Shown here: in pieces, positions 26,577-44,115 of the stretch
Numbering within the stretch: position 1 is the stretch's first letter
How the letters are laid out: each line of letters opens with the position of its first letter
NCBI GenBank assembly: GCA_013216015.1
Contig: JABSOI010000024.1
Coordinates: 1 to 64,000 of the forward strand
Direction: 5' to 3'
Length of the DNA stretch: 64,000 nucleotides
Origin: Alteromonadaceae bacterium
Lineage (GTDB): Bacteria; Pseudomonadota; Gammaproteobacteria; Enterobacterales; Alteromonadaceae
Program-made: the position numbers and the translations under genes
The notes under the pieces: generated by a model
Database searches by the model: none
What the model saw: the letters and a program-made list of their open reading frames with translations, nothing else
What the model was told of the DNA's origin: nothing

Positions 26577-26592
26577 AGCAAAAAGTGAGCCG
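26577..26592 (-). promoter_or_regulatory. Sigma-54 promoter of block 3 (P6-P7-P8)
   Basis: Read on the minus strand, CGGCTC-N5-TTGCT has GG and GC separated by exactly 10 bases as sigma-54 requires (consensus TGGCAC-N5-TTGCA). Equivalent sites lie before P4 and before the adaptor gene. The remainder of 26433-26789 holds the upstream motif and the higBA terminator. Confidence 0.72.
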
Positions 26593-26651
26593 TAAAAAAT
26601 AATCAATAAAAACAGATGGATGGGTTCTTGGTGATGTTTGTTAATATAGGT

Positions 26652-26686
26652 GTGATTCGATAACGAACTCGATAAGTCCGAAAATG
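26652..26686 (-). promoter_or_regulatory. Conserved upstream activator-like sequence of block 3
   Basis: On the plus strand GTGATTCGATAACGAACTC continues as GATAAGTCCGAAAATG. Near-identical sequences occur at 32780-32814 and 44081-44115. In each case the motif begins 61 bp from the GG of the sigma-54 promoter. TTCG and CGAA at its ends give it dyad character, as expected for a sigma-54 activator site. Confidence 0.72.
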
Positions 26687-26737
26687 GAACGGATTATTAT
26701 ACCAATTGGTGCAAATCGATTATAGTTTTTAGGTCAA

Positions 26738-26763
26738 TAAAAAACCTCACAAGGAGGCTTTGG
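26738..26763 (-). terminator. Probable terminator of higBA
   Basis: On the minus strand AAGCCTC and GAGGTTTTTT form a short hairpin with a T run, 27 bases beyond the higA stop codon. Confidence 0.6.
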
Positions 26764-26789
26764 TAGACATTGTTATAAATTAAGGGTGA

Positions 26790-27467
26790 TTATTTAATAA
26801 GCTCGTAGTCAGCGATTAAACTCTCTAAAGGAATGCTTAAATACTTATGAAGATTTCTTATCATGGAAATACTAAGTTTTCGCTTTTTTCCTAATATTTC
26901 AGTTACTCTACTGCGCTGCCCTAAAACTGGTACTAAATCGGAGCGGGACAAGCCTTCTTGCTCCATCCTGAATTTTATGGCTTCTACAGGATCTGGTGCA
27001 TCAATAAAGAAATGCTCTTGTTCATAAGCATCTACCAGTGTTACAAGTACGTTAAGCATGTCTCCTTGTGGAGTGCCTGGTTGCGCGTCCCAAAGTTTCT
27101 CAATGGATATCATGGCATTTCCATGATCCTGCTCAGTTTTGATTGGTTTGATATTCATTTCGACCTCCTGCGTTGTTGAAGCATCAATTTCATCATATTG
27201 TTTGTGAGTCCCGATAAATCGGACGTAAACAATACCGAACTCGTATTTAAGCGCTACAACAAGCCTATTTTTATTACCATGTATATTAAAAATAATGCGG
27301 TTATTTGCTAAAAAACTGGCATTATCATATTTGGCTTTAATATCTTGTGGAGATTGCCAACATGCATGTTTCGCTTCATCATACAACGCCTTTAATGGTT
27401 GTTCGGAATCAAAATATTTGGGAGCTTCCCAAAAATTCTTTAAAGATACTCGTGAAATAATTCTCAT
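26790..27467 (-). CDS. higBA: HigB-HigA toxin-antitoxin as a single in-frame fusion
   Basis: This one 225-residue ORF contains two normally separate proteins. Residues 1 to about 100 are a HigB-type ribosome-dependent mRNA interferase (MRIISRVSLKNFW, NNRIIFNIHGNKNRLVVALK, VYVRFIGTHKQYDEID). From Met104 (MNIKPIKTEQDHGNAM) the sequence is a HigA antitoxin with a C-terminal helix-turn-helix (IKFRMEQEGLSRSDLVPVLG, RSRVTEILGKKRKLSISMIR). No stop codon separates them. A strong AGGAGG lies five bases before Met104, so free HigA can still be made by internal initiation. A 27-bp palindrome upstream is the likely HigA operator. The locus sits on the same strand between permeases P5 and P6. Fusion may neutralise the toxin or be an active joined form. 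Confidence 0.88.
   Translation of the reverse strand: MRIISRVSLKNFWEAPKYFDSEQPLKALYDEAKHACWQSPQDIKAKYDNASFLANNRIIFNIHGNKNRLVVALKYEFGIVYVRFIGTHKQYDEIDASTTQEVEMNIKPIKTEQDHGNAMISIEKLWDAQPGTPQGDMLNVLVTLVDAYEQEHFFIDAPDPVEAIKFRMEQEGLSRSDLVPVLGQRSRVTEILGKKRKLSISMIRNLHKYLSIPLESLIADYELIK
27158..27169 (-). promoter_or_regulatory. Internal ribosome-binding site and start for HigA
   Basis: AGGAGG at 27169-27164 (minus strand) is five bases before ATG 27158-27156 inside the fused higBA frame. Initiation here would give a normal 122-residue HigA ending at 26790. In unfused loci this is where the higA ribosome site sits; here the HigB frame simply reads through it. Confidence 0.75.
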
Positions 27468-27476
27468 ATTTTTCCC

Positions 27477-27503
27477 TATACTTTCCCATTATGGGAAAGT
27501 ATA
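27477..27503. promoter_or_regulatory. Palindromic operator upstream of higBA
   Basis: A perfect 27-bp palindrome has 13-bp arms (TATACTTTCCCAT / ATGGGAAAGTATA) around one base. It lies 10 bases before the HigB start. Antitoxins of this family repress their own promoters by binding such sites, so it is the likely HigA operator. Confidence 0.8.
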
Positions 27504-27614
27504 TGTTTGAGTTCAACGCTAATTATTAAATAAGATATATTAATAATACTTAAAATAAGTATATGAAATTGGAAAAGTTATACCAAATCAGCAAAAACTT
27601 ATTATAAATTAAAA

Positions 27615-30038
27615 CTACCGATCTCCCCGCAAACTGTATATCGCGGGACGATTAATATATTGTCTCAATGGTAAGTAACAAGCACAGAATGAAATCAATG
27701 AAACTAAACCTAAAGTCACTAAAAATATGGGCAATAACTGCAAAGTTAAATAGCTATTAAATTGCTCATTAAAACCAAGTGTTAAAACCAATAAAACAAT
27801 AATGCTGGTTGCTATGCCAAATAAGATCGAGGGTGCATTTTCTTTGAGGATAAGTAAAATTAGTTCTTTGCGTTTAGCGCCAATCGCCATACGGGTTCCA
27901 ATTTCAAAACGGCGTATTTGAGTGCTGTAACTCAGAATACCGTATAAGCCTATGCCTGCCAGAAAGAAAGTGAATAAAGCTAAAACAGCAGCAGTGATTG
28001 CGGTAGTGATTTGACTGAACAGCTGTAGTTGAACTTGTTCTGTTAAAGGGGTTAGATCATAAATGGCGTATAACTTACTGGTAGTGTTTAGTAATGTAGT
28101 TAACTTTTCTCGTGACAATGCCTGGTTGTTTTTAAATTTAATTAAAAATTTGCTGCTGTTCGATAAAGCTGGCTGATAATAACGTAAAGGTATTTTGTCT
28201 TGTTTGGGCATTTTCACCCCTTTGACAATACCTGTCACGGTGAAAACTTTACCCCTGCTGGATAACTTAAGACCTAATGCATTCCCTTGAGGGGATAATT
28301 TTTTCGCAAGCACATCGTTGATTATTATTACTGAATTGTTATCTGAAATATCTGATTTACTGAAATAATTACCCGCTAACAGAGGTTGTCTGATCATTTT
28401 AAAATATTGATGATCAACACTTCTATTTTCAATTCTTAACTTTTCATTGCTTGATACAATAGTGACTTCTGGAGTATAAAACCGATTAAACGGTGATGCA
28501 GACTGACTTACTGATTCAACTTGAGGTAACTGCGCAAGGGCTATTTGTAATTGAGCCATAATTACACTGGTTTCTTCATCTGACGGTGTACTGGATGTTG
28601 AGGCCGATAATGATAAATAGTCAATATTAGTAAAATCAAAGCCTAATGGTTTTCCAATGGTATCTGAGGCTTGTTTAAACAAATTTATATTAATAAATAT
28701 TAGTGCGGTAGCAACAGCAACCTGACTTATAATTAGCCCATGGCGCACTTTTTTTGAAACTTGAGCACCCGTGTTTTTTCCACCGGATTGAAAAACAGAG
28801 TGCAAAGCTTGGTAATTTATCACTTTACTGCCAATGGCAGCAAAGAAAGAAGCAAAACACAAAATTAAGCTAAGTGCACAAATTAAGGTGAATACGTTAA
28901 TCGATAACTCAGCAATGCGTGGTAGCAATTCGGTTAAATATTTTTGCAATAGCCAAAAACCGCCAGTGGCAACACATAAGGCCAGTAGTATTGAAGCCGA
29001 CATCAACAAAGCTGATTCGGCAAATAACTTAAAAAACAATTGCTGTTTTTTAGCCCCCAAAGCCGCATGAATAGCTAATTGTGGTTGTTGCTGTGCAGTG
29101 CGTGACATATATAAGTTAGCAATATTGGCACAAGCAATAGCGAGTAGACCAATAACGCCTGCGAGTAATAAATAAACGATATCTTTACTGTCACCCAAAA
29201 TCACGTTTTTAAAGGTATTAAGCTCCATTTTTATCTGCCAGCCTTTATAAAGCTCAATATTGGCATTTTTACTTTGCCAAATATCGTTTATTAACGGGCT
29301 GATGGTCTGCTCGGCTTGCGTAGTGGTAATGTTATCTTTTAATTTACCAACAAAAACTAAGGTTGGATCTATATTAAACCAAAGTTCACGGGCATAAGTG
29401 GACAGGTTATAATCCCAGGGTAACCAAATGGCTGTTTTTAAACCTGTATTATAAATTTCCGGTTCAATAAATGATTCGGAAAGTACGCCAATAATCCGGT
29501 GGTTTACGCCACTGAAAGTTACTGTTTTTTGTAAAATATCTACATCGCCAGCAAATTGTTTTTGCCATGTCTGGTAGCTGATAACAGCGACAGGTTGGTG
29601 CTGTTCAAGCCCTTCACTTTTCTCAAAACGTCGACCGAGTTGCATAGGAGTATTGAGCAAGTTAAGCCATTCTGGTGTTATGTAAGCTGTAGTGAGCTTA
29701 GGTTGATGCGGCAAGGATGTTAATAGATCTTCACCATAGCTGATCATTGCCACTTCACTAAAAATGGTTTGGTTTTTATAAAGGTGAATTAACCCAGGGT
29801 AAGTAAAAGCTGAATAACTATTTTCACCCAGAGCATTTATTAAAGTGTGTTCAACACGATAGAGTTTTTCCTGATCAGAATAGGGCAAGGGTTTTATCAG
29901 CATCACAAAAGCCAATGTAACTACACACAACAGGGCGCCAAGTGTTAAACCCATAGTGGTTACAACACTTGTGACAAAACCTGGCTTTTGTTTTAAATTT
30001 CCCCATGCTTCTTTTAACTGATAGAAAAACAAATTCAT
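27615..30038 (-). CDS. Permease P5: duplicated MacB/FtsX-type ABC permease
   Basis: 807 residues, N-terminus MNLFFYQLKEAWGNLKQKPG, FtsX helix region IGLLAIACANIANLYMSRTA, coupling segment IRRFEIGTRMAIGAKRKELI, C-terminus RPAIYSLRGDR. It begins three bases after the P4 stop and is the second and last gene of block 2. The higBA locus follows on the same strand, 147 bases beyond its stop codon. Of the eight, its N-terminal half is most like P7, including the same AAAGGATCC ribosome-site sequence. This is consistent with a two-gene duplication (inference). Confidence 0.85.
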   Translation of the reverse strand: MNLFFYQLKEAWGNLKQKPGFVTSVVTTMGLTLGALLCVVTLAFVMLIKPLPYSDQEKLYRVEHTLINALGENSYSAFTYPGLIHLYKNQTIFSEVAMISYGEDLLTSLPHQPKLTTAYITPEWLNLLNTPMQLGRRFEKSEGLEQHQPVAVISYQTWQKQFAGDVDILQKTVTFSGVNHRIIGVLSESFIEPEIYNTGLKTAIWLPWDYNLSTYARELWFNIDPTLVFVGKLKDNITTTQAEQTISPLINDIWQSKNANIELYKGWQIKMELNTFKNVILGDSKDIVYLLLAGVIGLLAIACANIANLYMSRTAQQQPQLAIHAALGAKKQQLFFKLFAESALLMSASILLALCVATGGFWLLQKYLTELLPRIAELSINVFTLICALSLILCFASFFAAIGSKVINYQALHSVFQSGGKNTGAQVSKKVRHGLIISQVAVATALIFININLFKQASDTIGKPLGFDFTNIDYLSLSASTSSTPSDEETSVIMAQLQIALAQLPQVESVSQSASPFNRFYTPEVTIVSSNEKLRIENRSVDHQYFKMIRQPLLAGNYFSKSDISDNNSVIIINDVLAKKLSPQGNALGLKLSSRGKVFTVTGIVKGVKMPKQDKIPLRYYQPALSNSSKFLIKFKNNQALSREKLTTLLNTTSKLYAIYDLTPLTEQVQLQLFSQITTAITAAVLALFTFFLAGIGLYGILSYSTQIRRFEIGTRMAIGAKRKELILLILKENAPSILFGIATSIIVLLVLTLGFNEQFNSYLTLQLLPIFLVTLGLVSLISFCACYLPLRQYINRPAIYSLRGDR

Positions 30039-30041
30039 CTA

Positions 30042-32552
30042 TTAGGATCCTTTCAGGCTATGGATCGCTGGGCGATTAATATATTGTCTCAACGGCAGGT
30101 AACAAGCACAGAATGAAACGATTGAAACCAGTCCTAAAGTCGCTAATAAAATCGGTAACAGTTGCCAGCTTAAATAATGTTTAAGTTCAGTGCTATACCC
30201 TATACTTAAGCTAAGTAATACCAATAAACTAGTGACAATACCTAAAAGTAATACACCAGAATTGTCTTTAAAAATCAGCGCTACAATATCTTTACCTTTA
30301 GCGCCGATTGCCATTCGCGTACCTATTTCAAAACATCGCATACGGGTACTGAAATCAAGCACACCAAATAATCCTATTCCCGCTACAATCAGTACAAGTA
30401 TCGTTACAATTGCAGTGGTAATTACAGTCACTATATTATTTAGCTGTAAGCCTGTGTGTAGTTTGGTTAAATTTTCATAACTAAATACAGAAAAACGTGG
30501 ATCTATGCCGTTAAGCAGCTGCACAATTTGTTCGCGGGTGAGCTTGTTTTGGTTTTTATGTTTGATCATGAAATTAAAATCACGTTCAATTGTAACTGGT
30601 CGGTAAATACGCTGAAGGTTGGCTTCACGGTTAGGTACATGAATATCGTTCACAACACCAATTATGGTTAACAAAACGTCACGACTGGTTTTTATTTTTT
30701 GACCTATTACTTCTCCATGTTCAGTAAGCTGTCTGGCAAAACTTTCGTTAACAATAATCAGGTCTTCTCTGTCATTTATTTCACTTTTGCTGAACGTTCT
30801 ACCTGAGTGCAGCGTTTGATTCATCATTGAAAAATATTGCTCATCAATAAAATTTTGTCTTAAAGATACTTCTTGATCATTGGCATTAATGGAGAAAATA
30901 CGCGTACTGAACTTTGTTATTGGCGAAGAACCTTGGCTAACTTGAGTTGTTTCAGGTAACAGGTGTAATTGTGCTTTTATTTGCCGTAATACATTTAAAC
31001 GTTCTTCTGACGATGCTTGTTGCGGATCGTTATAAGCAAGTTTTAGTTGCTGAATATTTTCGAAGTTAAAACCTGTTGTTTTGGTTATTGCCGTAAATGA
31101 TTCTTTAAATAATACGATATTGGCAAAAATAATCAGTACAGTGAGTAATATTTGACTGGTGATAATTACCTTTTGAAACCTTGAAGATACCTGAGCAGCC
31201 TGGTTTTTATTACCTGATTGCAGCTTGGTTTGTATCTTGTTGAAGTTAATACCCGTGATATTTAATTTAGCAAACATCAACGTGATTAAAGTTACAATAA
31301 AAAGAATAACGAGCAGGGGTGGTAATGATAATTGTAGTTCGTCAACTCGATTAAATAAGTCAGTTAAATAGTGTTGCGACAAGTAGAACCCCGCATTGGC
31401 GACAGCAACGGCGAAACAAACTGACAGTGCCATAAGGCAGGTGATCTCGGTCAGCATATGATTAAAGAGCTGCTTTTTATTTGCGCCCAGGGCGACTCTT
31501 ATTGCTGCTTGGTGTTGTTGCTCGGCCCCACGGGCTACAAATAAATGGCTGATATTGGTGAAAGTCATTATTAATAAACCAATCACGGCACTTAGAAGTA
31601 AAAATATCCCGGTATTATTATCTCCCGAAACTACATCGACAATCGAACGCAGCTTAATAGATAAACTAAGATCCTTAAAACGCGCGTTTCCTACTAATTC
31701 TTGTTTCCATCGAGTATTTAATTGTGGTGTGAGTAATTGCTCGGCTTGATATGGGTTAAATTCATTATTAATCTGACTAAGCATAAATAAGTTTGGCGCA
31801 AAGTGTCCCCAGCCGTTACGACCACGTTCAGGAACTGGATTGAAATCCCAGGGTAACCATATTTGCGTTTCACGTCCTACTTCATATAAAGCTGGTTCGG
31901 AGAAATTTTCATTTGCCACGCCGATAATATTAAAACTAGTGGTGTTTACCCTGATTGTCTGACCAATAATATCGGCTTGTTGATGGTATAAATTTTTCCA
32001 GGTTTTAAAACTGATAATCGCTACGGGTTTATGGGTATTTAAAGCTTCGCTTTGGTCAAAATATCGTCCCATTGCCAGTGGCATATCAAGTAATGTTAAA
32101 TACTCAGGGGTAATATAAGTGGTATTAACTCTGGGGTGAGATGCTATAGAAGTAATATTGGCATTTTCATAAGTGATCATACTGACAAGATTTAATGGTG
32201 TTTGTGTTTCACGTTGTCCCTTAATTTCTCTCTTATTTTCACTATTACTTATATTCTGTTTTTTATTTTGTTGCGGGTTGTTAAGTTGCTTATAAAGCAT
32301 CACAAAAGCAGGATAGGGATACATCGACATTTTAGGCGCCCGTGCATCACCTTGAATTTTACTTTCAACGATATAAAGTTTTTCTTGCTCAGGATAAGGC
32401 AAGGGTTTTATTAACACAACATAAGCTAAAGTAACCACACATAGCAGTGCGCCCATAGTTAGGCCTATGGTAGTTACAACACTCATTACAAAGCCAGGTT
32501 TTTGCTTTAAGCTTAAATAGGCTTGCTTCATACTATAAACTATTTGACTCAT
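30042..32552 (-). CDS. Permease P4: duplicated MacB/FtsX-type ABC permease, first gene of block 2
   Basis: At 836 residues this is the longest paralogue. The first periplasmic domain carries an extra hydrophilic stretch rich in Asn, Gln, Lys and Glu (NNPQQNKKQNISNSENKREI, about residues 90-110). The coupling segment is slightly divergent, MRCFEIGTRMAIGAKGKDIV, and the C-terminus is RPAIHSLKGS. It is first in block 2 (P4-P5), with AGGAT before its ATG, a sigma-54 promoter about 155 bases upstream, and the shared upstream motif beyond. It appears to be the most divergent member overall. Confidence 0.84.
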   Translation of the reverse strand: MSQIVYSMKQAYLSLKQKPGFVMSVVTTIGLTMGALLCVVTLAYVVLIKPLPYPEQEKLYIVESKIQGDARAPKMSMYPYPAFVMLYKQLNNPQQNKKQNISNSENKREIKGQRETQTPLNLVSMITYENANITSIASHPRVNTTYITPEYLTLLDMPLAMGRYFDQSEALNTHKPVAIISFKTWKNLYHQQADIIGQTIRVNTTSFNIIGVANENFSEPALYEVGRETQIWLPWDFNPVPERGRNGWGHFAPNLFMLSQINNEFNPYQAEQLLTPQLNTRWKQELVGNARFKDLSLSIKLRSIVDVVSGDNNTGIFLLLSAVIGLLIMTFTNISHLFVARGAEQQHQAAIRVALGANKKQLFNHMLTEITCLMALSVCFAVAVANAGFYLSQHYLTDLFNRVDELQLSLPPLLVILFIVTLITLMFAKLNITGINFNKIQTKLQSGNKNQAAQVSSRFQKVIITSQILLTVLIIFANIVLFKESFTAITKTTGFNFENIQQLKLAYNDPQQASSEERLNVLRQIKAQLHLLPETTQVSQGSSPITKFSTRIFSINANDQEVSLRQNFIDEQYFSMMNQTLHSGRTFSKSEINDREDLIIVNESFARQLTEHGEVIGQKIKTSRDVLLTIIGVVNDIHVPNREANLQRIYRPVTIERDFNFMIKHKNQNKLTREQIVQLLNGIDPRFSVFSYENLTKLHTGLQLNNIVTVITTAIVTILVLIVAGIGLFGVLDFSTRMRCFEIGTRMAIGAKGKDIVALIFKDNSGVLLLGIVTSLLVLLSLSIGYSTELKHYLSWQLLPILLATLGLVSIVSFCACYLPLRQYINRPAIHSLKGS

Positions 32553-32704
32553 GCTATTTATATCCTGTGGAACGGTTATTATTTTTGTTTTTTTGCAAGT
32601 TAAAATAAATCGTGTGGTTAATTACTTTTTGCTTTAATAATTTATTTTATCTTGTTGTGAAACATATGAGTGATTGTTTCCTTTATATTTATTAGCAAAA
32701 AACC

Positions 32705-32720
32705 TGCAAAAAATGAGCCA
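32705..32720 (-). promoter_or_regulatory. Sigma-54 promoter of block 2 (P4-P5)
   Basis: The minus strand reads TGGCTC-N5-TTGCA, one mismatch from the sigma-54 consensus, with GG-N10-GC spacing. It is the best of the three sites. Confidence 0.78.
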
Positions 32721-32779
32721 ACGTAAATAATCAATAAAAACATGAGGATGAAGTTTTTTAAATGGTTGTTAACATTTTA

Positions 32780-32814
32780 GTGATTCGATAGCGAACTCAA
32801 TAAGTCCGAAAATG
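32780..32814 (-). promoter_or_regulatory. Conserved upstream activator-like sequence of block 2
   Basis: On the plus strand GTGATTCGATAGCGAACTC continues as AATAAGTCCGAAAATG. It differs from the block 3 copy at two positions and also starts 61 bp from the GG of its sigma-54 promoter. Confidence 0.74.
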
Positions 32815-32980
32815 ACACTGATTAATGTAAAACGTTATATGCTTGATCAGATTTATATTTGCATAAACGGTAAACAGAAGGTTGTGATGTGCATATGGGC
32901 TCTGGTAATTATGGAGTTCTTTGGATGGAGTCCTTCATGAATGTTTACTTGTACTATTTATTGCACAACTCGTTTGATTG

Positions 32981-33002
32981 GTAGTACAAAAAGTTGTACT
33001 AC
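32981..33002. promoter_or_regulatory. Inverted repeat, candidate operator upstream of yefM-yoeB
   Basis: Perfect 9-bp arms GTAGTACAA / TTGTACTAC surround four bases. TTGTACAA also occurs at the first codons of yefM. YefM-type antitoxins are known to bind sites with a TGTACA core, but this palindrome is 240 bases from the yefM start and could serve another promoter. I see no gene in 32821-33241. Confidence 0.4.
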
Positions 33003-33241
33003 AATTAAAAAGGTGATTAACCATCTTCTTTAATATTTACGTTTTAGAGGTAAAATCAAATATTATTGTATTTAGATTAACCAGATTAACAATTAAACAA
33101 ATGAGATAGGAATGGTAAAATTCGAGAGTAATCTTACTGGAAATAGATTTAGTAATGACTCACGAATACGGAATGACAAGCCTGAAGGTTGATGCCTTAA
33201 AGGTTACAGTTCGCGCCTAATAAGCGTTACCAAATATTAAA

Positions 33242-33517
33242 ATGATTGTACAAACTTATAGCGAAACGCGAGCTAACTTTAAGGCTGCCATTGAATCTGT
33301 TGCAGATCGACATGAACCCTTGTTAATAACGAGTAAATCCGCTGATGTTGTTATGATGTCACGCGAAGACTTTGACAGTATGCAAGAGACTATGTATTTG
33401 CTAAGTTCAAGAAATAACGCAAGACGTCTTATGGAATCAATTGCCGAATATGAGTCGGGCTCTGTAATTCAAACTGAGATTGACGAAAATGGTAACTATA
33501 AAGAAAAAACTGGATAA
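33242..33517 (+). CDS. yefM: YefM-type antitoxin (Phd/YefM family)
   Basis: The 91-residue antitoxin has the family N-terminus IVQTYSETRANFKAAIESVA (DNA-binding and dimer part). It continues with MSREDFDSMQETMYLLSSRN and NARRLMESIAEYESG, and a polar tail that would wrap the toxin. It overlaps the start of the toxin gene, the usual antitoxin-first order. The pair is on the strand opposite to the permease array, in the gap between blocks 1 and 2. There is no obvious Shine-Dalgarno. Confidence 0.9.
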   Translation: MIVQTYSETRANFKAAIESVADRHEPLLITSKSADVVMMSREDFDSMQETMYLLSSRNNARRLMESIAEYESGSVIQTEIDENGNYKEKTG

Positions 33518-33785: not shown

Positions 33786-33929
33786 GCCCGTAGAGTTTTG
33801 TTAGTAATGCTTGGTTAGGTCTTTATTTTAATAGTAAAGAGAGAGGCGGATAAAGTAAGTCTTTGTAAAAACAGACGGGGCGCCTTTTAATATCCTGACA
33901 ATTTCGTCGTTAATTGATACGGTACCGAT

Positions 33930-34044: not shown

Positions 34045-34229
34045 GCGTACACCAGTCACCTTATTTTATCTATTACCATTGCTCTATTTTCTTAGTGTTA
34101 GATATAAATTAAGAAAATCTCTTACAAATCCCAATTACGACTAATTAACTAAAGACATTCACGTAAATTAGTATTCCATCCGGTCAATCTATATAGCATC
34201 AATTAACTGTGACGTACCCATTCATTAAA

Positions 34230-36701
34230 TTACTCAGCCCCTCGTAAACTATAAATTGCCGGACGATTAATATATTGTCTTAACGGCAAGTAACAAGCGA
34301 ATAATGAAATGAATGAAACTAAGCCTGATGTTGCTAAAAACATGGGTAATAACTGCAATGTTAAATAATGTTCAAGCTGTTCGCTAAAACCAAATGTCAA
34401 CACTGATAAAATGAAGATACTGGTTACTATGCCCAATATTATTGAGCTTGCATTGTCTTTGATGATAAGTGCGATTAGGTCCCGACGTTTAGCACCAATT
34501 GCCATACGGGTTCCAATTTCAAATCTGCGCATTTGCGTGCTGTAACTTAAAATACCGTACAGACCAATTGCTGATAAAATAAAGGTGATCAGTGTTAGTG
34601 CTGCGGTGGTAATAGCCGTAGTATATTGAGTGAATAAGCGATGAGATTTTTGTTTACTGAGGGGAGAAAATTCAAATAAGCTGACTGAGCTGGTGACTTC
34701 TTTTATCACGGCAACTAATTGTGCCCGAGAGATTGTTTGCTGATCTTTAAGCTTTATCAGTAAATTGGAACGGCTGAGGTTTGGCATATAAACTCTTGGT
34801 GGAATAGTATTTCCTCCCGGTAATTTAAAATCATTAACCACACCTATAATCGTGTAGGCATTAGGTCCACCAAAAGAAAGCTGTTTACCTAAAGCCTTGA
34901 TGCTTTCCTGTTTATTAAGTTGCTGAGTAAGCTGTTGTGCTAATACCTGATTAATAACCAGCACAGGTGCACGGTCTTTATAATCATTTTCGCCAAAGTT
35001 ATCACCGGCAATAAAGTCCTGTCCCATTAAATTAAAATAATGACTATCAACGCTTTTACCAAGAGGTAACACTATTTGGTTCGATTGCACTTCGGTTAAT
35101 GACCAGATACCTTCGCTGTCGGTCAGTGGAGAGCTATTTTTACTGACTAATTCAACTTGAGGTAACTGAGCAATTTTTTGTTGAATTTCTTTGCTGATCG
35201 CTAACTGATCGGCTCTTGAAAGCTCGGTACTGGTAGATGGCGCAATAGAAACACTGATTAAATTATCAACATTAAAACCTTCTTCCTGATTGATTGACGT
35301 TATTGCTTCATTAAATAAACTGATGTTGATAAAAATCAGTACAGTAGCCACGGTTACCTGACTGATAATAAGTATTTGTCGAACAAACTTTGATACTTGT
35401 AAGCCAGTTCCCTTACCGCTACTTTGTAAGTTAGTGTTTAATCTTTGGTAGTTAACAACACGCTGGCTTAACGCAGCAAAAAAGAACGCAAGTACTAGTG
35501 GAAACAGCAAAGCACAAATTAAGGTGAATCCACCAAGGTTAAGTTCATTTACCCTTGGTAATACGAGTTGTAATTGACTTTGCATCAGCGAAAAAGCAAA
35601 TTGAGCCACAACTAAGGCAAGCACCATAGCCAGTGTCATTAACAGCAGGGATTCAGTGAATAATAACTGAAAAATATGTTTACGCTTTGCGCCTACGGCT
35701 GCCATTATAGCCAGTAGATTTTGTTTCTCTACCGTTCTTGAAAGTTGTAAATTGGAAATGTTGATACAAGCAATTAACAGCAAACCAATGACACCAATTA
35801 ACGTTAAGTAAGCTTTGTTTTCGTTATCACCCAAAATTACGCTTTTAAATGAACGCAACTGCATTTCAATATGCCAGCCCTTATAAAATCCCTGTCTGTC
35901 GATGTTGTCCTGCCAGGTATCGTTAACTAATGTTGTTATTTGCTGCTCGGCTTGTTTGGCGGTTAGTTCATTTTTTAATTTTCCGATAAAAGTAAGGCTG
36001 TTGCCTCTGTCCCACCAGCGTTCTCGAAATCTCTGTGGAGTGGCATTGAAATCCCACGGTAATAATATTTGAGATTTTCTGCCTAACTGTTCTATTTCAG
36101 GTTCAACAAAAGACGGTGCAATTACTCCAATAATACTAAAACTGACACCTCTAAAAGTGACTTTTTGCTCCAGTATATTTTTATCGGCTGAAAATTCATT
36201 TTGCCAGGTTTCATAGCTGATCACCGCAACAGGGTTATGAGTATTCAATGCTTCCGATTGCTCAAATGCCCGACCAAGTGCCATATCAACCGCTAACAGC
36301 GTAAACCATTGAGGAGTGATATATGTGGTGGTTAGCGTAGGTTGCAGAGCCATTGAAGTTAATACTTCTTCATCGAACAGTATTAAAGCACTGTCGCTGA
36401 AACTTTGCTGATTTTGATAAAAATGGACCAAACCCGGATAGTTAAATGCGGTAACATTTGCCGAACCCGTGGCATCAAATTGAACATTATCTACTTTATA
36501 TAAACGCTCTTGATCCGGGTAAGGTAGCGGCTTAACTAACATTACATAGGCTAAAGTAAGCACTGACAATAATGCTCCTAACGTTAAGCCCATGGTGGAG
36601 ACCACACTGAAAACAAAATCTGGTTTGTTTTTCATACTAGCAAATGCTTGTTTTACTTGGAATTTAAATAGATAAATAATATTAAGGCTCTCGAGTTTCA
36701 T
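34230..36701 (-). CDS. Permease P3: duplicated MacB/FtsX-type ABC permease
   Basis: 823 residues, last gene of block 1. The N-terminus is extended (MKLESLNIIYLFKFQVKQAF) before the shared helix FVFSVVSTMGLTLGALLSV. The segment after the first FtsX helix reads RTVEKQNLLAIMAAVGAKRK, unlike the HAALGA form of most paralogues. The coupling segment is MRRFEIGTRMAIGAKRRDLI and the C-terminus RPAIYSLRGAE. The start follows the P2 stop directly, with AAAAGGA upstream. yefM-yoeB and a bipartite palindrome separate it from block 2. Confidence 0.85.
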   Translation of the reverse strand: MKLESLNIIYLFKFQVKQAFASMKNKPDFVFSVVSTMGLTLGALLSVLTLAYVMLVKPLPYPDQERLYKVDNVQFDATGSANVTAFNYPGLVHFYQNQQSFSDSALILFDEEVLTSMALQPTLTTTYITPQWFTLLAVDMALGRAFEQSEALNTHNPVAVISYETWQNEFSADKNILEQKVTFRGVSFSIIGVIAPSFVEPEIEQLGRKSQILLPWDFNATPQRFRERWWDRGNSLTFIGKLKNELTAKQAEQQITTLVNDTWQDNIDRQGFYKGWHIEMQLRSFKSVILGDNENKAYLTLIGVIGLLLIACINISNLQLSRTVEKQNLLAIMAAVGAKRKHIFQLLFTESLLLMTLAMVLALVVAQFAFSLMQSQLQLVLPRVNELNLGGFTLICALLFPLVLAFFFAALSQRVVNYQRLNTNLQSSGKGTGLQVSKFVRQILIISQVTVATVLIFINISLFNEAITSINQEEGFNVDNLISVSIAPSTSTELSRADQLAISKEIQQKIAQLPQVELVSKNSSPLTDSEGIWSLTEVQSNQIVLPLGKSVDSHYFNLMGQDFIAGDNFGENDYKDRAPVLVINQVLAQQLTQQLNKQESIKALGKQLSFGGPNAYTIIGVVNDFKLPGGNTIPPRVYMPNLSRSNLLIKLKDQQTISRAQLVAVIKEVTSSVSLFEFSPLSKQKSHRLFTQYTTAITTAALTLITFILSAIGLYGILSYSTQMRRFEIGTRMAIGAKRRDLIALIIKDNASSIILGIVTSIFILSVLTFGFSEQLEHYLTLQLLPMFLATSGLVSFISLFACYLPLRQYINRPAIYSLRGAE

Positions 36702-39359
36702 TTATTCACTTCCTTTTAGGCTTTGAATTGCAGGATGATTAATATATTGACGCAATGGCAAGTAACAGGCGAAAAATGAAATAGTACTGATCAATGCCAA
36801 TGTGATTAAAAACATCGAGATAAGTTGTGTACCAACATAATCGGTTAGTGACTCACTAAAACTCAAGTAAAGCGCCAGTATAATAATAACGCTGGTTATT
36901 GCTCCAACCATTAATGCGGCAGAATTATCTTTTAATATCATGGTGATTAAGTCTTTCCGTTTTGCTCCAATTGCCATGCGGGTGCCAATTTCAAAGCGGC
37001 GTGATTGAGTGCTGTAACTTAAAATTCCGTATAAACCAATTGCTGCTAAAAATATGGTTAACAAAGTAAGCACTGTGGTGGTAATAGCTGTTGTGTAATG
37101 GGTAAAAAGTATCTTCTTACGGGTGTCAGCCATGCTTTCAAAATGGAAGAGGGTAAATTTACCGGAAACGCTATTTATCGTACTGATCATTAGTTCGCGA
37201 CTAACTTTCTGGTTGGCTTTAAACTTGATTAAAAAGTCGTTAGATGCGCGCCAGGAAGTTCGGTACGCTTGCATAGGGTTGGCTTTAACATCGGGAATGT
37301 TTGTTCCTTTTACTATACCAACTATTGTGCGCTCGGTACTTGAGCCATCTTTTTCCACTTCACCCATGATATTGATTTTTCTACCAATCACTTTTTTAGC
37401 GATGTTTCCAGTAAAGTTTCCATTAGTGGCAAGACTGTTGGCAATTTTTTTAGCAAAAATATCATTGATGACGACGACATCATGACCATTTTGAATGTCG
37501 TCAGTACTGAAATAGTCACCTTCAAGCAACGTTTGTTCAAGCAAGTTAAAGTAATCTTTATCAACTCCCCCTGAAATTTCTACATCAAAAGCTTGTTCAG
37601 TGCCCAGGTCGGTAAATACTGAAGAGTTTGTTCTCAGTGGCGAGGATGATTGGCTTATAGCCTCAACTTGAGGTAAAAGTAAGAAACTATTTTTTAGTTC
37701 ATTGAGTAACGATATTGTTTCCTCACCTCTTCTTGGCAGCGACGAGTCTGCTGCAATAGTCATACTGAAGATATTATCAACTTTATGGCCAGCGGGAGTG
37801 TTAATTACTGTTGTTGCACTATTGAACAGGCTGATATTAACAAAAACCAAACTGGTTGCGATTGCCACCTGACTGATAATTAAACATTGACGAATACGTT
37901 GTGACACCTGAATGCCTGTACCTTTACCACTACTTTGCAAGGTATGGTTTAACGCTTGATAATTAATCATTCTATTGCTTAATTGGGCAAATAAAATGGC
38001 AAAGAAAAATACAAATAATAATGCGCAGCTAAGGGTAAATACGCTTAACGATAATTCATTAATTCGGGGTAATAATTCTGATAAGTAGTGTTGTAGAATG
38101 AAAAACCCGAATGATGCAACAATAAGTGCAACAATGGCAGACAATGTCATTAATAAACCAGTTTCAACCAACAAGGTTTTAAATAACTGTTTTTTCGTTG
38201 CACCAATAGCAGCATGAATAGCTAATGGTTTTTGCTGTTGAGCCGTACGTGAAATAAACAAGTTACTTATGTTTGCACAAGCGATCACTAATAAACCGGT
38301 AATACTGGCAAGCAGTAAATAGAGTCGATTAGTATTATCACCTAATATGACAGATTTAAATGACTTAAGTGACAATTTGACTTGCCAGCCTTTATAAAAA
38401 TCAAACTGAGTGACATTTTCTTGCCAAAGTTCATTTAAAAAAGGACTAATGCTTTGCTCTGCCTGAACTTGAGAAAAATCAGATTTTAATTTACCGACAA
38501 AGGCAAGTTCCCAGCGTACATATGCCCAACTATCAACATACATGCTACGCAGATTGTTGTAATCCCATGGAAGCCAAACTTGTGTTTGTCTGCCAATTTC
38601 ATGAAGTTCCGGTTCGATAAAAGACTGAGCGGTAACACCAACAATTCGAAAACTGGCATTATTAAAAGTTATCTTATTAGCTAAAATATCCTTGTCACCA
38701 TTAAATTCATTTTTCCAAGTGTCATAACTGATAATAGCAACAGGGTTAAAGCGCTCTTTGGCTTCTGTTTCTTCAAAGCTTCTACCAACTACCATTGGGG
38801 TATTTAACAGTGTGAAAAAGTCAGGTGTAATATAACTCGTGCTCATCATTGGCTGAGTTGGGCTAGAGGTTAAAACGTCAGTATCGTAAGCAATAAGTGC
38901 TGACTGTTCAAAAACAGTTTGCTTTTCATAAAAATGGGTTAAACCCGGATAGCTGAAATTACCTGATTTTAACTCCCCAGTATTATCAGTCATGTTGTGC
39001 TCAACCCAATATATACCCGTAATCATTCAAAATGCAGGTTTTGAAGCGTTTTAAAAGATTATCTACTGCGTTGCTTTCAATCCCAATAGCCCGCTATTGC
39101 TCAATCAAGCGCCTTTTAGATAAACTTTTAAATTCACTTCAAATTCCTGCATCTTGAATGACCACGGGTATAGCTTCTCTTGTTCGGGGTAGGGCAGGGG
39201 TTTTGCCAGCATTAAATAAGCCAGTGTAAGTATGCATAAAAGCGCACCTAAGGTTAACCCCATTGAACTGACAATACTTAATACAAACCACGGCTTGTTT
39301 TTTAAACCAAACCAGGCTTGTTTAACTTGATACGAAAATTGTTGAAAAATATGATTCAT
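36702..39359 (-). pseudogene. Permease P2, split by a MITE insertion
   Basis: An N-terminal piece (39359 to about 39173) encodes MNHIFQQFSYQVKQAWFGLK through PYPEQEKLY. A C-terminal piece (from about 39011 down to 36702) continues with WVEHNMTDNTGELKSGNFSY and runs without a break to HPAIQSLKGSE. Joining the two across the inserted DNA restores KLYWVEH exactly. The 157-bp insert plus its TA duplication (159 bp) keeps the frame but introduces four in-frame stops. An ATG in the insert end (39026) could restart a 774-residue protein lacking the first helix, but no ribosome site precedes it. P3 downstream must still be transcribed through it. Confidence 0.88.
39014..39170. mobile_element. 157-bp MITE with TA target-site duplication
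   Basis: Terminal inverted repeats of about 25 bp begin TACCCGTAATCATTCAAAAT on the left and TACCCGTGGTCATTCAAGAT on the right (reverse complement), both continuing GCAGG. TA is duplicated at 39012-39013 and 39171-39172. There is no transposase, so it would be moved in trans. TA duplication is typical of IS630/Tc1-mariner-like transposases. It interrupts permease P2. Confidence 0.88.
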
Positions 39360-39362
39360 GGA

Positions 39363-41801
39363 TTAATCACTTCCTTTAAGGCTGTTAATTGCTGGTTTAT
39401 TAATGAATGGTCTTAAAGGTAAATAACAAGCAGAAATTGAAATAATACCGATTAACAATAAGGTAAATAAACACACAGGCACCAGTTGAACGTTAATGTA
39501 GCTGATCAGGTATTCACTGAAGCTTAAATACAATGCGAGAAGAAGAAGAACGCTGATACCCAGACCCAATATTAACGATTTAGCATTGTCTTTTATGATC
39601 AACATAATTAAATCTTTACGTTTGGCTCCAATAGCCATGCGGGTACCTAATTCAAACCGGCGCATTTGGGTGCTGTAGCTTAAAATTCCGTACAGGCCAA
39701 CCGCAGCCAGAAATAAGGCAATAATGGCTAATAAACCACTGGTGACGAAGGTGGTATATTGCGTAAATAACCGAGAATTACGTCGTTCATTCAGCGTGGT
39801 TAAACTGAACAGATTAAATTGCTTATTTACGTGTTGCAGCGTGTTAAGGATCTGTTGACGAAGTAATGTTTGGCCAGCCTTAACTTTTACTAACATCATG
39901 TTTCTTGAAGGAGATGAAGGATAATAAAAGCGAGCAGGGATTTCGCTGGTATCAGGAATTTTAATGCCTTTAACTACACCAATTACTCTTGCGCCGCTCT
40001 TAAATTTTATCCCTAATGCACTGCCATTTGGTGCAAGTTGCTTAGCGAATACATCGTTGATGATAAGGATATTATTGTCATCTTTAATATCTGCTTCGCT
40101 GAAATAATTCCCTTCAATTAAAGGCTGGTTGATAAGTTGAAAGTATTGATGGTCTACATCTTTCGCTTTTACGGAGAATCTCTCATTTGTACCAAATACT
40201 GTCGCAGCTAACGTGCTAAAAGCCATAGGAGCACGAGACTGGCTGATCATTTCAACTTGTGGTAAAGCTAATAATTGACTGCGTACTTTGGCAACATCAG
40301 CAATTTTTGATTCTCTATTCAATTCTTTGTCTGATGGTAGTGATAAAACTAACCATGAAATGTTGTCAGTTTCAAAACCTGTTGGTTCATTGATTGTTGT
40401 TATTGCATCTTTAAATAACACTATATTGATAAACACTAAAGCGGTAACAATTGCCACCTGGCTGGTAATTAAACCTTTGCGGATATTCTTTGAAACCTGA
40501 ATACCAGTGCCTTTGCCACTTGATTGTAATGTTGCATTTAACGCATGGTAATTAATCATATTAGTACTTAAGCGGGCAAAAAATAACGCCAGAGCAATAA
40601 CCAACACAATTGCAGAGCTTAAGGTGAATGTGTTGATAGACAGTTCATCAACTCTGGGCAAATAATTCGCTAAAAAGTGTTGTAAAATCAAGAAGCAGCC
40701 ACTTGCAACCATTAAAGCAATAACGATAGAGATAAACATTAATAAGCCTGTTTCAGCCAATAGTGTTTTAAACAGGTGCTTTTTAGATGCACCAAGGGCG
40801 GCATGAATCGCTAATTGTCTTTGTTGCTCGGCGGTACGCGACATAAATAAATTGGCGATATTAGCGCAGGCGATTAAAACCAGACCAACAACCCCGGCCA
40901 AAAGTAAATAAACGGTTTTCTCACTGCCATTGAGGATCACGGACTTTAATGTATGAACCTTGATGCCAATGCCCCAATTAGTAAAAAATTCCCGGCCAGC
41001 AACATTTTCTTGCCAATTATTATTAATTAACGTGGTTAGTGTTTGTTCCAGTTGTTTTGGGCTTCTTTTTGAGCTTGAATTTGAGGTAGAGGCTGAAGGC
41101 AACTTGGCAAGATATAATAGTCCACTATCGTCATTACCCCATGCTTTCCTGTCTCTTTCACTTACAGAGTTATAATCCCAGGGTAGAAATACTGCTGTTT
41201 TTAAACCGGGGCCATATAACAGAGGTTCAGTGAATTCTTCACTCAATACCCCAATAATTTGATAGCTTACGCCACTGAAATTCACTTTCTTTGATAAAAT
41301 ATCTTTTGCAAGCGAAAACTCATTCAGCCAGGTGTTATAACTTAAAACGGCTACAGGGTTATACGTGTCTAACGCTTCACTTTGTTCAAAAGTACGGCCG
41401 ACAGCCATTTTCGCATTTAACAGACTAAACCATTCAGGCGTGATAAAACTAAGCTGCATTTTAGGATGCGTTGGCTGTGAAAGCAGTACATCACCGTCAA
41501 TATAAAGTAATGCTGATAAACTAAAGGCTTTCTGGTTTTTATACAAGTGCATTAAATTGGGATAAGTATATGCCGTCCCGTCAATTTTACCGTTATTATC
41601 AATTAAATTATGCTCTACAGTGTATAAGCTGTCTTGTTCTGGGTAGGGTAAAGGCTTCGACAATAGAACATAAGCTAAAGTGAGCACACATAATAATGCA
41701 CCCATAGTAAAACTCATTGTGGTTACTACACTGGCAACAAAGCCGGGCTTTTTCTTTAAACTTGCCCAGGCTTGTTGTTGTTGATAAATAAATTGACTCA
41801 T
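39363..41801 (-). CDS. Permease P1: duplicated MacB/FtsX-type ABC permease
   Basis: 812 residues, first permease of the array, with its start two bases beyond the ATPase stop. N-terminus MSQFIYQQQQAWASLKKKPG, FtsX helix region VGLVLIACANIANLFMSRTA, then EQQRQLAIHAALGASKKHLF, coupling segment MRRFELGTRMAIGAKRKDLI, C-terminus KPAINSLKGSD. The first periplasmic domain has a Ser-rich insertion (ASTSNSSSKRSPKQ). As the copy next to the single ATPase and adaptor it may be the ancestral partner of the system (inference). Confidence 0.87.
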   Translation of the reverse strand: MSQFIYQQQQAWASLKKKPGFVASVVTTMSFTMGALLCVLTLAYVLLSKPLPYPEQDSLYTVEHNLIDNNGKIDGTAYTYPNLMHLYKNQKAFSLSALLYIDGDVLLSQPTHPKMQLSFITPEWFSLLNAKMAVGRTFEQSEALDTYNPVAVLSYNTWLNEFSLAKDILSKKVNFSGVSYQIIGVLSEEFTEPLLYGPGLKTAVFLPWDYNSVSERDRKAWGNDDSGLLYLAKLPSASTSNSSSKRSPKQLEQTLTTLINNNWQENVAGREFFTNWGIGIKVHTLKSVILNGSEKTVYLLLAGVVGLVLIACANIANLFMSRTAEQQRQLAIHAALGASKKHLFKTLLAETGLLMFISIVIALMVASGCFLILQHFLANYLPRVDELSINTFTLSSAIVLVIALALFFARLSTNMINYHALNATLQSSGKGTGIQVSKNIRKGLITSQVAIVTALVFINIVLFKDAITTINEPTGFETDNISWLVLSLPSDKELNRESKIADVAKVRSQLLALPQVEMISQSRAPMAFSTLAATVFGTNERFSVKAKDVDHQYFQLINQPLIEGNYFSEADIKDDNNILIINDVFAKQLAPNGSALGIKFKSGARVIGVVKGIKIPDTSEIPARFYYPSSPSRNMMLVKVKAGQTLLRQQILNTLQHVNKQFNLFSLTTLNERRNSRLFTQYTTFVTSGLLAIIALFLAAVGLYGILSYSTQMRRFELGTRMAIGAKRKDLIMLIIKDNAKSLILGLGISVLLLLALYLSFSEYLISYINVQLVPVCLFTLLLIGIISISACYLPLRPFINKPAINSLKGSD

Positions 41802-41803
41802 GC

Positions 41804-42553
41804 CTAATCTCTGATACTTTTAGCAACTTTAGGAGACTGTAATATTGCACCATCTAATAATTTAAGCTGTGTTTTAGCCATATCAGCATAACGGGGATCA
41901 TGCGTTACCATACAAATGGTGGTGCCTTTGTTATTCAACTCTTCAAGTACATCCATTACCATATCGCCACTTTTAGAGTCGAGGTTACCGGTTGGCTCAT
42001 CAACTAATAAAATAGCCGGATCTGCCACTAAAGCACGGGCAATGGCGATACGTTGCTGCTGACCACCAGAAAGTTGATTAGGTTTATGACTGGTTCTATG
42101 GCTCATACCAACCATTTCCAGGCATTCATTAACGCGTTTGTTTATTTGTGCATCAGTAGGTTTCTCGCTACTGTAACGAAGCGGAAGGGCAACATTGTCA
42201 AATACTGATAATTCATCAATAAGGTTAAACGACTGGAAAATAAAACCAATTTTACTGTTTCGTATTTCGGCCGCTTCATCTAATGAAAGGCTGGTGACAT
42301 TTACACCTTCAATAAAATATTCACCGCTGGTTGGCATGTCCAACAAACCTAAAATTGATAATAAAGTTGATTTACCACACCCCGATGGCCCGGAAATAGA
42401 AACATAATCACCGGAATAAATTGTCATGTCGATATTTTGCAGCGCATGTGTTTCGAGTTCTTCTGTTTCAAAAACTTTTCCGATGTTTTTCATTTGAATT
42501 TTTATTGCGTTGTTCGGGGTATTGGTTGCCGTATTGCTTTGTGCGTTACTCAT
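41804..42553 (-). CDS. ABC transporter ATP-binding protein (MacB/LolD type)
   Basis: The 249-residue ATPase has Walker A GPSGCGKSTLLSILG, Q-loop FIFQSFNLIDELSV, signature LSGGQQQRIAIARAL, Walker B AILLVDEPTGNLD and a switch histidine in CMVTHDPRY. It is of the type that powers MacB/LolCDE-like mechanotransmission permeases. It is the only ATPase in the 25-kb array and would have to serve all eight permeases unless others exist elsewhere. AAGGG sits seven bases before the ATG. A 14-bp palindrome lies in the 115-base gap to the adaptor gene. Confidence 0.95.
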   Translation of the reverse strand: MSNAQSNTATNTPNNAIKIQMKNIGKVFETEELETHALQNIDMTIYSGDYVSISGPSGCGKSTLLSILGLLDMPTSGEYFIEGVNVTSLSLDEAAEIRNSKIGFIFQSFNLIDELSVFDNVALPLRYSSEKPTDAQINKRVNECLEMVGMSHRTSHKPNQLSGGQQQRIAIARALVADPAILLVDEPTGNLDSKSGDMVMDVLEELNNKGTTICMVTHDPRYADMAKTQLKLLDGAILQSPKVAKSIRD

Positions 42554-42581
42554 AATTTGCCCTTAATTCAGTTATATGTTT

Positions 42582-42595
42582 GCTAAACGTTTAGC
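42582..42595. promoter_or_regulatory. GCTAAACGTTTAGC palindrome between adaptor and ATPase genes
   Basis: A perfect 14-bp palindrome with a central CG, extended by TT...GA on the sides, has the form of a LacI-family operator. It lies 29 bases before the ATPase start and could control an internal promoter, or form a hairpin in the mRNA. Confidence 0.4.
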
Positions 42596-42668
42596 GAATA
42601 AATGTAAAGTTATCTAATGTTAGTTTGTGAATACCAGATAGCTAATGCCAACTAGTTAACGTCTGTTA

Positions 42669-43925
42669 CTAAAATTTTATTTCCAATTCAACATTGGTCT
42701 TTTTCAGGTTCGATAAATCAGAAACAATAAATTTATCTTTGGTTGTTGCGCCTGACAGTATTTGAATAAATTGTCCCGCCTGTTGGCCATATTTAATATC
42801 ATTAAGTGTGGCAGTCTGTTGATCATCATTCAAACGGTACAATTGACCACTTGAAAAAGATTTAACATTCGCAGGGCGTTCAATAAAGTTAATGTTTTTT
42901 AACGTTTCAGCGATAATAACACCGTCTATATTCTGCTGTGGACGAGCACTGGCCGGTAGTTTATTCGGTAATGATATTTCAATATTAACGGTATTATTTT
43001 CAACAATAGGATCTATACGGGCAACAATGCCTTCAATTTTGTCCTGTCGTGTATCGATAATAGTTCGTTGACCTACTTGTATTTGCTGTGCCTGACTCTG
43101 TGGTACACGAATTAATGCAATTAAATCAGTAACACTACCAATTAACGCAATTTCCTGACCTGCCGCCAGGCTTTGCCCTAAATTGACACTAAGACGCTGC
43201 AGAACACCATCAAAGCCTGCGCGTACCGTTAATTTATCAAGACGTTTTTGCGCTATGCCCAGTTGCCCTTTTTGTTGTTTAATGCGTTCTTGTTGAATAT
43301 TAATGGCTTCTTTATGAACCTCAAACAGTTGTTCAGCACGTTCAGACAAAAGTCCAATACGTTCTTTAAGTTGCTTTTCATCGAGTAAACTACCTTTATA
43401 GTCAAGTTGCGAAACAATCCCTTTTTCCACCAACTTTTCTTCCGCAGTACGCTTTAACTTAGCGGTTTCAAATCGAGCTGTTATTTCAGCCAAATTTGCA
43501 CGTTCATTAAGCGTTTCACGTTTCTGGTTAACTATTAATTGACGTAAATTAGCGGTAATTTGAGCAAGCTCTTGCTGAGCATTCTCAACTTGCTGTAATA
43601 GTTCTGGATTTTCCATTTTAATAATAATGCTATCAGCTGAAACCTTAGCTCCGGGTTTCAGTACAATCTCTTTAACCGTAGCTCTTGTTAAGGCGGTAAT
43701 AAGTTGCTGTTTGTCTGATGTTAAAGTGCCATAGCCCTCAATAATCACATCAAGATCGCCAGTTTGTACCGTACCGACAAGAATATCAGTACGCTTTACA
43801 CTGACAGTGCCCAAAGATTGCCTGGCAAAGAAAAACAAAATGATCACTGCACTTATCAAAACCAAAGTGATTTTCATCTGGTTTGATAATTTACCTTGTT
43901 TGGATTTTTTCTTGATAACATCCAT
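42669..43925 (-). CDS. Periplasmic adaptor (HlyD/MacA-type membrane-fusion protein)
   Basis: A 418-residue protein with an N-terminal membrane anchor (about 19-38). A biotinyl-lipoyl-like half follows (VKEIVLKPGAKVSADSIIIK), then a long Gln/Glu/Lys-rich coiled-coil hairpin (about 108-225), the second lipoyl half (VRAGFDGVLQRLSVNLGQSL) and beta-barrel domains. Such adaptors bridge inner-membrane transporters to a TolC-type outer-membrane channel; no TolC gene is in the window. It is the first gene of block 1, with a strong GGAGGT eight bases before ATG and a sigma-54 promoter about 80 bases upstream. Together with the ATPase and permeases it points to export out of the cell or periplasm. Confidence 0.9.
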   Translation of the reverse strand: MDVIKKKSKQGKLSNQMKITLVLISAVIILFFFARQSLGTVSVKRTDILVGTVQTGDLDVIIEGYGTLTSDKQQLITALTRATVKEIVLKPGAKVSADSIIIKMENPELLQQVENAQQELAQITANLRQLIVNQKRETLNERANLAEITARFETAKLKRTAEEKLVEKGIVSQLDYKGSLLDEKQLKERIGLLSERAEQLFEVHKEAINIQQERIKQQKGQLGIAQKRLDKLTVRAGFDGVLQRLSVNLGQSLAAGQEIALIGSVTDLIALIRVPQSQAQQIQVGQRTIIDTRQDKIEGIVARIDPIVENNTVNIEISLPNKLPASARPQQNIDGVIIAETLKNINFIERPANVKSFSSGQLYRLNDDQQTATLNDIKYGQQAGQFIQILSGATTKDKFIVSDLSNLKKTNVELEIKF

Positions 43926-44005
43926 TAATGTAGACCTCCGTAAAGTTGTTCAACAATAATATTGTTAAACTGATAATTATTGATTTAAATTTTATTGATT
44001 TAAAT

Positions 44006-44021
44006 TGCGAGAATCGTGCCA
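44006..44021 (-). promoter_or_regulatory. Sigma-54 promoter of block 1 (adaptor-ATPase-P1-P2-P3)
   Basis: The minus strand reads TGGCAC-N5-TCGCA. The -24 element matches the consensus exactly and GG-N10-GC spacing is kept, with one change (C for T) in the -12 element. Confidence 0.75.
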
Positions 44022-44080
44022 AATAAAATTTAGAGTAAAAACAATTAGTTAGATTGTTGATGGATAGGGTGATGAGTTGA

Positions 44081-44115
44081 TTGATTCGATAGTGAACTCT
44101 GTTAGTCCGAAATCG
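44081..44115 (-). promoter_or_regulatory. Conserved upstream activator-like sequence of block 1
   Basis: On the plus strand TTGATTCGATAGTGAACTC continues as TGTTAGTCCGAAATCG. It is more diverged than the other two copies but keeps GATTCGATA, GAACTC and TAGTCCGAAA and lies at the same 61-bp distance from its promoter. Beyond it, to 44805, the spacer has a degenerate palindromic repeat (44173-44205), AT-rich DNA and the M4 upstream box. Confidence 0.68.

Follow-up and report, generated by a model that had tools for sequence, protein, structure and literature searches.

How is an exporter cluster that reads from three separate promoters, and has no activator gene of its own, brought under common control? 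The question is raised by a 64,000-nucleotide stretch of an Alteromonadaceae bacterium (GCA_013216015.1, contig JABSOI010000024.1, positions 1–64,000; hereafter the window), in which sites resembling sigma-54 promoters precede genes for a periplasmic adaptor, an ABC (ATP-binding cassette) ATPase and a series of MacB/FtsX-type permeases. A preliminary description had noted three such promoters with a shared upstream motif and proposed the regulon of an enhancer-binding protein (EBP) encoded elsewhere. The comparison of promoters and regulators makes it highly likely that the cluster is under the control of a two-component pair encoded outside the window, acting via the three sigma-54 promoters. 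The best candidate for the activator, correctly described as absent from the window, was found on another contig of the same genome (C82).

All three promoters point to the minus strand. The sigma-54 sites at 26577–26592 (CGGCTCACTTTTTGCT; site 1), 32705–32720 (TGGCTCATTTTTTGCA; site 2) and 44006–44021 (TGGCACGATTCTCGCA; site 3) were found as first described, each with GG-N10-GC and near-consensus -24/-12 elements. Site 1 precedes permease genes at 23967–26432, 21509–23944 and 19084–21507, site 2 those at 30042–32552 and 27615–30038, and site 3 precedes hlyD, the ATPase gene and three permease genes; the open reading frames (ORFs) thus confirmed that every motif and promoter pair stands before a block of MacB/FtsX-type export genes. 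Every specified letter of the motif was matched at 26654, 32782 and 44083, starts that had been placed 2 bp away (26652, 32780 and 44081), and 61 bases separated it from the sigma-54 site in all three cases, counted to the T of TGG (C at site 1). The element is conserved as reported, but instead of a single composite motif it is better read as a 16-bp proximal dyad, AGTYCGNTATCGRACT, plus the better half of a distal dyad 21 bp upstream. On the minus strand, the proximal dyads occupy 26654–26669 (AGTTCGTTATCGAATC), 32782–32797 (AGTTCGCTATCGAATC) and 44083–44098 (AGTTCACTATCGAATC). Promoters 1 and 2 have distal half-dyads at 26675–26683 (TTTCGGACT) and 32803–32811, where relatives can have full distal dyads; promoter 3 has a distal dyad with a weak left half at 44104–44119 (GACTCGATTTCGGACT), starting 21 bp before the proximal one.

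No match to the motif arose in 100 shuffles of the window. In the whole 6.45-Mb genome, a scan allowing up to three mismatches returned three copies, all of them the window sites, and none in the reversed control. The sigma-54 pattern alone showed no excess over shuffles (49 matches against 52.7 expected at up to two mismatches), so the evidence is the pairing of motif and sigma-54 site. A looser scan of the genome (dyad edge plus sigma-54 site at 58–68 bp) gave nine matches against four in the reversed control; two were window sites, and no further member of the regulon was found, although diverged sites would escape such a scan. The only one of these matches examined closely, on contig C205 (dyad 11 of 15, gap 58), had no ORF start downstream in range and was judged a chance match inside a gene. 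The promoter region had no match in a plasmid collection.

The spacers between motif and promoter, initially taken as three diverged ones, are only partly diverged and not fully independent: 40 of 61 bases are shared by sites 1 and 2, 32 by sites 1 and 3 and 28 by sites 2 and 3. Identity just upstream of the motif was 23, 17 and 18 of 60 for the same pairs, and the motif region was kept at 25–28 of 30, far above flanks or spacer. Sites 1 and 2 look related by duplication, and therefore the fixed spacing inside the window does not amount to three independent observations. Part of this regularity is attributable to common descent, and the independent evidence comes from other genomes, in which the fixed spacing recurs.

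The motif also occurred in another genome of the genus (G001), upstream of the orthologous hlyD (contig C461, no mismatch) and of the gene orthologous to the first permease of the promoter-1 block (contig C129, three mismatches), in both cases 61 bases from a sigma-54 site. In the wider family, HlyD relatives occurred in 110 of 295 genomes at an E-value of 1e-50; 40 loci were fetched first and more later. The 101 HlyD-like rows reduced to 73 distinct promoters, of which four were set aside (the window, L031, L097 and L098); 13 of the remaining 69 had a sigma-54 score below 13 and were dropped, leaving 56, all outside the genus. In most of the first 40 loci, the HlyD-ATPase-permease cluster adjoined genes for a sigma-54 response regulator and a kinase. 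The relatives' promoters showed by eye a palindrome, AGTCCGATATCGGACT, and variants of it, often twice. The best dyad lay 59–63 bp before TGG in 48 of the 56 promoters, which is a descriptive count. The motif derived from the window, before any consensus was drawn, found its best spot at a gap of 57–65 in 24 of the 56, against 1.8 from shuffles. Inverted-repeat pairing, scored free of any motif, peaked at gap 62 (3.77 of 8, against a mean of 2.15 and a standard deviation of 0.33). Throughout about 2.2 Mb of fetched loci there were 64 distinct pairs of dyad and sigma-54 site at a gap of 57–65, compared with 5, 1, 2 and 3 at four shifted gaps. Fifty-four of them preceded an HlyD gene, six an EBP gene and one a permease gene (window site 2), and for three no ORF began within range. 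Because HlyD served to select the loci, the HlyD share is partly by design, which does not apply to the contrast between gaps.

In 47 of 57 promoters, a second dyad started 20–22 bp farther upstream than the first, with a median score of 11 against 8 for the best spacer match. In six loci with divergent regulator and exporter genes (L091, L093, L178, L179, L181 and L183), the regulator gene had its own dyad and sigma-54 site at 60–63 bp. In five permease-first loci (L070, L072, L073, L145 and L156), tandem dyads lay 147, 181, 174, 197 and 233 bp from the sigma-54 site, two of these sites being weak. L083 had the regulator and no clean dyad arrangement, and L157 had neither. The dyad and the gap of about 61 bp are thus widely kept, but the five loci at 147–233 bp show that exactly 61 bp is no general requirement; in these sequences, exact spacing appears to be a habit, not a rule.

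Sites and regulators also occurred together. Among 67 distinct promoters with an HlyD score of at least 350, 50 had the pair of dyad and sigma-54 site together with a C82-type regulator in the same locus, six only the regulator, five only the pair and six neither. The pair was therefore present in 50 of 56 promoters with a linked regulator and in 5 of 11 without. One of the pair-only loci (L089) ends within the kinase gene, and others are on short pieces. L068 had no regulator within its 19.5 kb, and its genome (G064) has a close regulator on another contig, split as in the genome of the window. Four of the six genomes with neither (G217, G018, G079 and G211) lacked a close regulator altogether. 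In a hand tally of the 295 family genomes, which are related and not independent events, HlyD reached at least 357 bits in 44 and the regulator at least 557 bits in 39, and both did so in 37. The operators at target promoters thus appear to be conserved together with the regulator, with the exceptions given here, as expected of an EBP regulon. The dyad at the usual upstream position in many relatives' exporter promoters, with a linked sigma-54 regulator, supports the proposal of the preliminary description.

Contig C82 (5.6 kb) carries a regulator gene (2527–3879) and an overlapping kinase gene (3860–5200). The regulator scored above cut-off for Response_reg (80.8 bits), Sigma54_activat (214.0) and HTH_8 (35.9); with a predicted receiver, sigma-54 AAA+ domain and Fis-type helix-turn-helix, it is classed as an NtrC-family response regulator. 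The genome had 24 matches to PF00158, of which 17 were compared (the five weakest were left unread, and L009 and L021 were left out by the frame-picking pattern). Thirty-four regulators were found in the first 40 loci; two were the genome's own proteins, and all 32 foreign ones matched the C82 protein (L019) best among the 17, at 58–68% identity. A maximum-likelihood tree was built from 13 of the 17 own EBPs and, of the 55 linked ones, the first 45. In it, C82 fell inside the linked group, in a 14-row branch with support 98/94, and the 12 other own EBPs fell outside the 46-row linked group (support 94/88). The C-terminal end of the C82 regulator is LGLTKSSMYRRLEKY; the recognition-helix pattern LG[LI]xK[SA]S[ML]YRR, which C82 and its G001 ortholog both have, was present in 52 of 59 foreign EBPs and in none of eight own paralogues. 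Nine of the genome's own regulators share the helix end. Eight of them adjoin HlyD and permease genes, and the ninth is C82; since the window cluster lacks a regulator and C82 lacks an exporter on its contig, the two fit together by elimination. Thus the activator of the cluster is, to judge from these comparisons, very probably the sigma-54 response regulator on C82. The genome has one match to the sigma-54 gene, which looks intact.

The last 75–80 bases of C82 (L131:5554–5631) recur at about 50 places in the genome, and the contig probably ends at an assembly breakpoint in a mobile repeat. Before promoter 3, the 132-bp stretch at 44237–44368 (minus strand) occurs once in its own genome and has 72% identity over this length with the sequence that immediately follows the kinase gene of G001. 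This suggests that the kinase–regulator pair may once have stood directly upstream of hlyD, as in relatives, with 44237–44368 as a possible relic; we give this little weight, because the G001 contig ends soon afterwards and without dyads.

Several points weigh against the C82 pair as controller of the three promoters. In the assembly, the pair is not near the window cluster, and C82 ends 431 bases after the kinase gene. No dyad was found upstream of the C82 regulator gene in either genome of the genus, and autoregulation of this gene was rejected on that ground. The exact 24-letter motif is limited to the genus, with no copy in 38 of the 40 relatives searched. The dyad consensus was drawn after the relatives' promoters had been viewed, which makes the 48 of 56 descriptive and leaves the test with the window motif as the independent one. 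Six of the 56 promoters with a linked regulator fail a 56–65 bp rule (the five at 147–233 bp, plus L083). Finally, the strict helix pattern is not matched by seven of the 59 foreign EBPs; six of these differ from it, as read, at just one residue.

Three other explanations were weighed. The shared element might have no function of its own and merely have been copied when the permease blocks were recently duplicated, as the 40 of 61 spacer bases shared by sites 1 and 2 and the paralogy of the permeases would allow. However, in the window the motif was kept far better than its surroundings, and in relatives the dyad is found at the same place in the promoter. Furthermore, all six promoters that lacked both the linked regulator and the pair had no dyad and no sigma-54 site, and four of them belong to genomes without a close regulator. 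This explanation is largely refuted and is the least probable of the three. A different activator of the same genome might instead bind the sites, and two were considered. The C23 paralogue (L012) is the second-best match of most linked EBPs, at about 50% identity, but it has its own linked exporter with a different upstream inverted repeat, and its recognition helix differs. The nearest EBP gene, L013, which we take to encode a TyrR-like protein, lies on the same contig 2.4 kb beyond the end of the window; its product is no response regulator and differs in its helix from the linked EBPs, and it was rejected on domain layout and helix. Control by such an activator is thus improbable.

The dyads might also be bound by a repressor or some other factor, while a regulator with a binding site elsewhere drives the sigma-54 promoter. 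Many regulator families use dyad motifs, and binding of the C82 regulator to these dyads is a prediction. The position of the dyads, their tandem array 20–22 bp apart and their presence before the EBP gene nevertheless fit NtrC-family enhancers, and in five relatives the dyads have moved 85–170 bp farther from the promoter yet stayed tandem pairs, as enhancer action at a distance allows. We regard a repressor reading as very improbable, and control by the C82 pair remains the preferred explanation.

The genes downstream of the three promoters, all on the minus strand, provide one adaptor and one ATPase for eight permease genes. Promoter 3 is followed by the HlyD-type periplasmic adaptor (42669–43925; Pfam HlyD_3 and HlyD_D23), the sole ABC ATPase of the cluster (41804–42553; ABC_tran) and permease genes at 39363–41801, 36702–39026 and 34230–36701. 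In the second of these, a repeated 156-bp element (39012–39167) breaks the reading frame close to the start of the gene. Some 40 nearly identical copies of this element occur in the genome (46 match rows in all), and it folds into one long imperfect hairpin (shuffle z-score -9.0); it is, judging from these features, a MITE (miniature inverted-repeat transposable element)-like repeat. The promoter-2 block consists of 30042–32552 followed by 27615–30038, and the promoter-1 block of 23967–26432, 21509–23944 and 19084–21507. In a Pfam scan of four permeases, full-length or shortened (39363–41801, 36702–39026, 30042–32552 and 23967–26432), MacB_PCD and FtsX were each found in two stretches; the remaining four were assigned from the ORFs and a permease profile. 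Hydropathy of two permeases, including that at 39363–41801, gave about eight hydrophobic segments, and the layout has two periplasmic domains. Between two permease blocks, and on the same strand, 26790–27467 encodes a protein of 225 aa; Pfam assigns it a HigB-type toxin domain, and part of its C-terminal region resembles a helix-turn-helix. Divergent from and adjoining the exporter cluster are six paralogous secreted metalloprotease genes (44806–62463), presumably of the M4 type by eye, with related upstream DNA.

If the C82 pair controls the cluster, a signal would lead to phosphorylation of the regulator, which would bind the proximal and the weaker distal dyad as dimers, the dyad centres lying, on a very rough estimate, 95 and 116 bp upstream of the transcript start. 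The regulator would then assemble, and its ATP hydrolysis would open sigma-54 RNA polymerase at the three promoters at once, so that the adaptor, the ATPase and the eight duplicated MacB-type permease genes, one of them interrupted, would be made as a single stimulon. The controller would be the C82 pair and no other. The signal is a guess: as in BceRS-BceAB, the kinase may respond to the transporter itself or to a membrane-active compound, because it has two close hydrophobic segments (15–30 and 38–63) and almost no loop between them. By the same simple hydropathy, 99 kinase ORFs gave two segments in 60 cases, one merged segment in 30 and three in 9.

A regulator with receiver, Sigma54_activat and HTH_8 domains, a paired kinase and dyad operators upstream of a -24/-12 promoter are shared with other NtrC-family sigma-54 regulons; here, unlike in those, the regulator gene stands apart from its targets, and three promoters lie in one cluster. 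Bce-type modules have an OmpR-type regulator, and by the domain scan the C82 regulator is not of this type. According to PMC7828314 and PMC5985334, BceS is an intramembrane-sensing kinase linked to a MacB-superfamily transporter. The Gram-positive peptide detoxification system BceRS-BceAB, as presented there, resembles the present one in its kinase with hardly any extracytoplasmic loop, its linked MacB-superfamily ABC transporter and the regulation of the transporter genes; the C82 kinase, by simple hydropathy only, likewise has two close membrane segments and no sensor domain. The differences here are an EBP-type sigma-54 regulator, a full double MacB permease with two periplasmic domains and an HlyD adaptor. 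The BceB-type permease has ten helices and one large extracellular domain, according to part of PMC5985334, as opposed to about eight segments and two periplasmic domains in the window. With modest confidence, the cluster may be seen as a detoxification or envelope-stress module resembling BceRS-BceAB and driven by sigma-54.

The permeases share the double FtsX/MacB_PCD layout of ADOP (TIGR03434)/MacAB efflux proteins, and ADOP was their best NCBIfam match; three of them scored 431.3, 452.1 and 404.3 against a curated cut-off of 622.3 and are not formal members, and here, in contrast to ADOP, an adaptor and a separate ATPase are associated. Adaptor, ATPase and permease also gave weak-to-moderate matches to the darobactin exporter DarBCD, but all fell well short of the cut-offs (55.5 of 450 for the adaptor, 247.1 of 375 for the ATPase and 30–45 of 700 for the permeases), and this assignment was rejected. 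For other bacteria, a review-type survey (PMC12316311) has already placed FtsX-like permeases and COG1136 ATPases under predicted sigma-54 control. The NtrC-family two-component regulon is a well-known kind, and the general link between sigma-54 and FtsX-type permeases is not new. No published description of this regulator–operator pair or target set was found in the literature searched, outside which most subscription papers lie. A search by the operator sequence string gave no title on such an operator among the matches listed, and PMC3162934 had none of the six terms looked for in it.

The same genome holds further paralogous exporters. In five of them (L132, L133, L137, L098 and L099; contigs C100, C12, C181, C23 and C178), the sigma-54 sites were preceded by quite different inverted or iterated repeats, read by eye and without statistics, as if each paralogue had its own operator; in L134, L135 and L136, no sigma-54 site scored 15 or more. 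We tentatively propose, as a possibility that is still rather doubtful, that the genome contains nine paralogous, mutually insulated sigma-54 modules (eight intact loci and one split between C82 and the window), each with a short-loop kinase, an NtrC-family regulator, a MacB-type exporter and its own operator. These would be a Gram-negative, sigma-54 counterpart of the Bce flux-sensing modules, and the copy in the window would feed one adaptor and one ATPase with up to eight alternative permeases, widening the substrate range.

A regulator, an operator and a regulon are hereby assigned, from sequence alone, to a widespread and unnamed exporter type of marine gammaproteobacteria, and the assignment is testable in cultured relatives. 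It suggests that the sense-and-export logic of Gram-positive peptide resistance may operate here with a different transcription machine, and with one ATPase serving many permeases.

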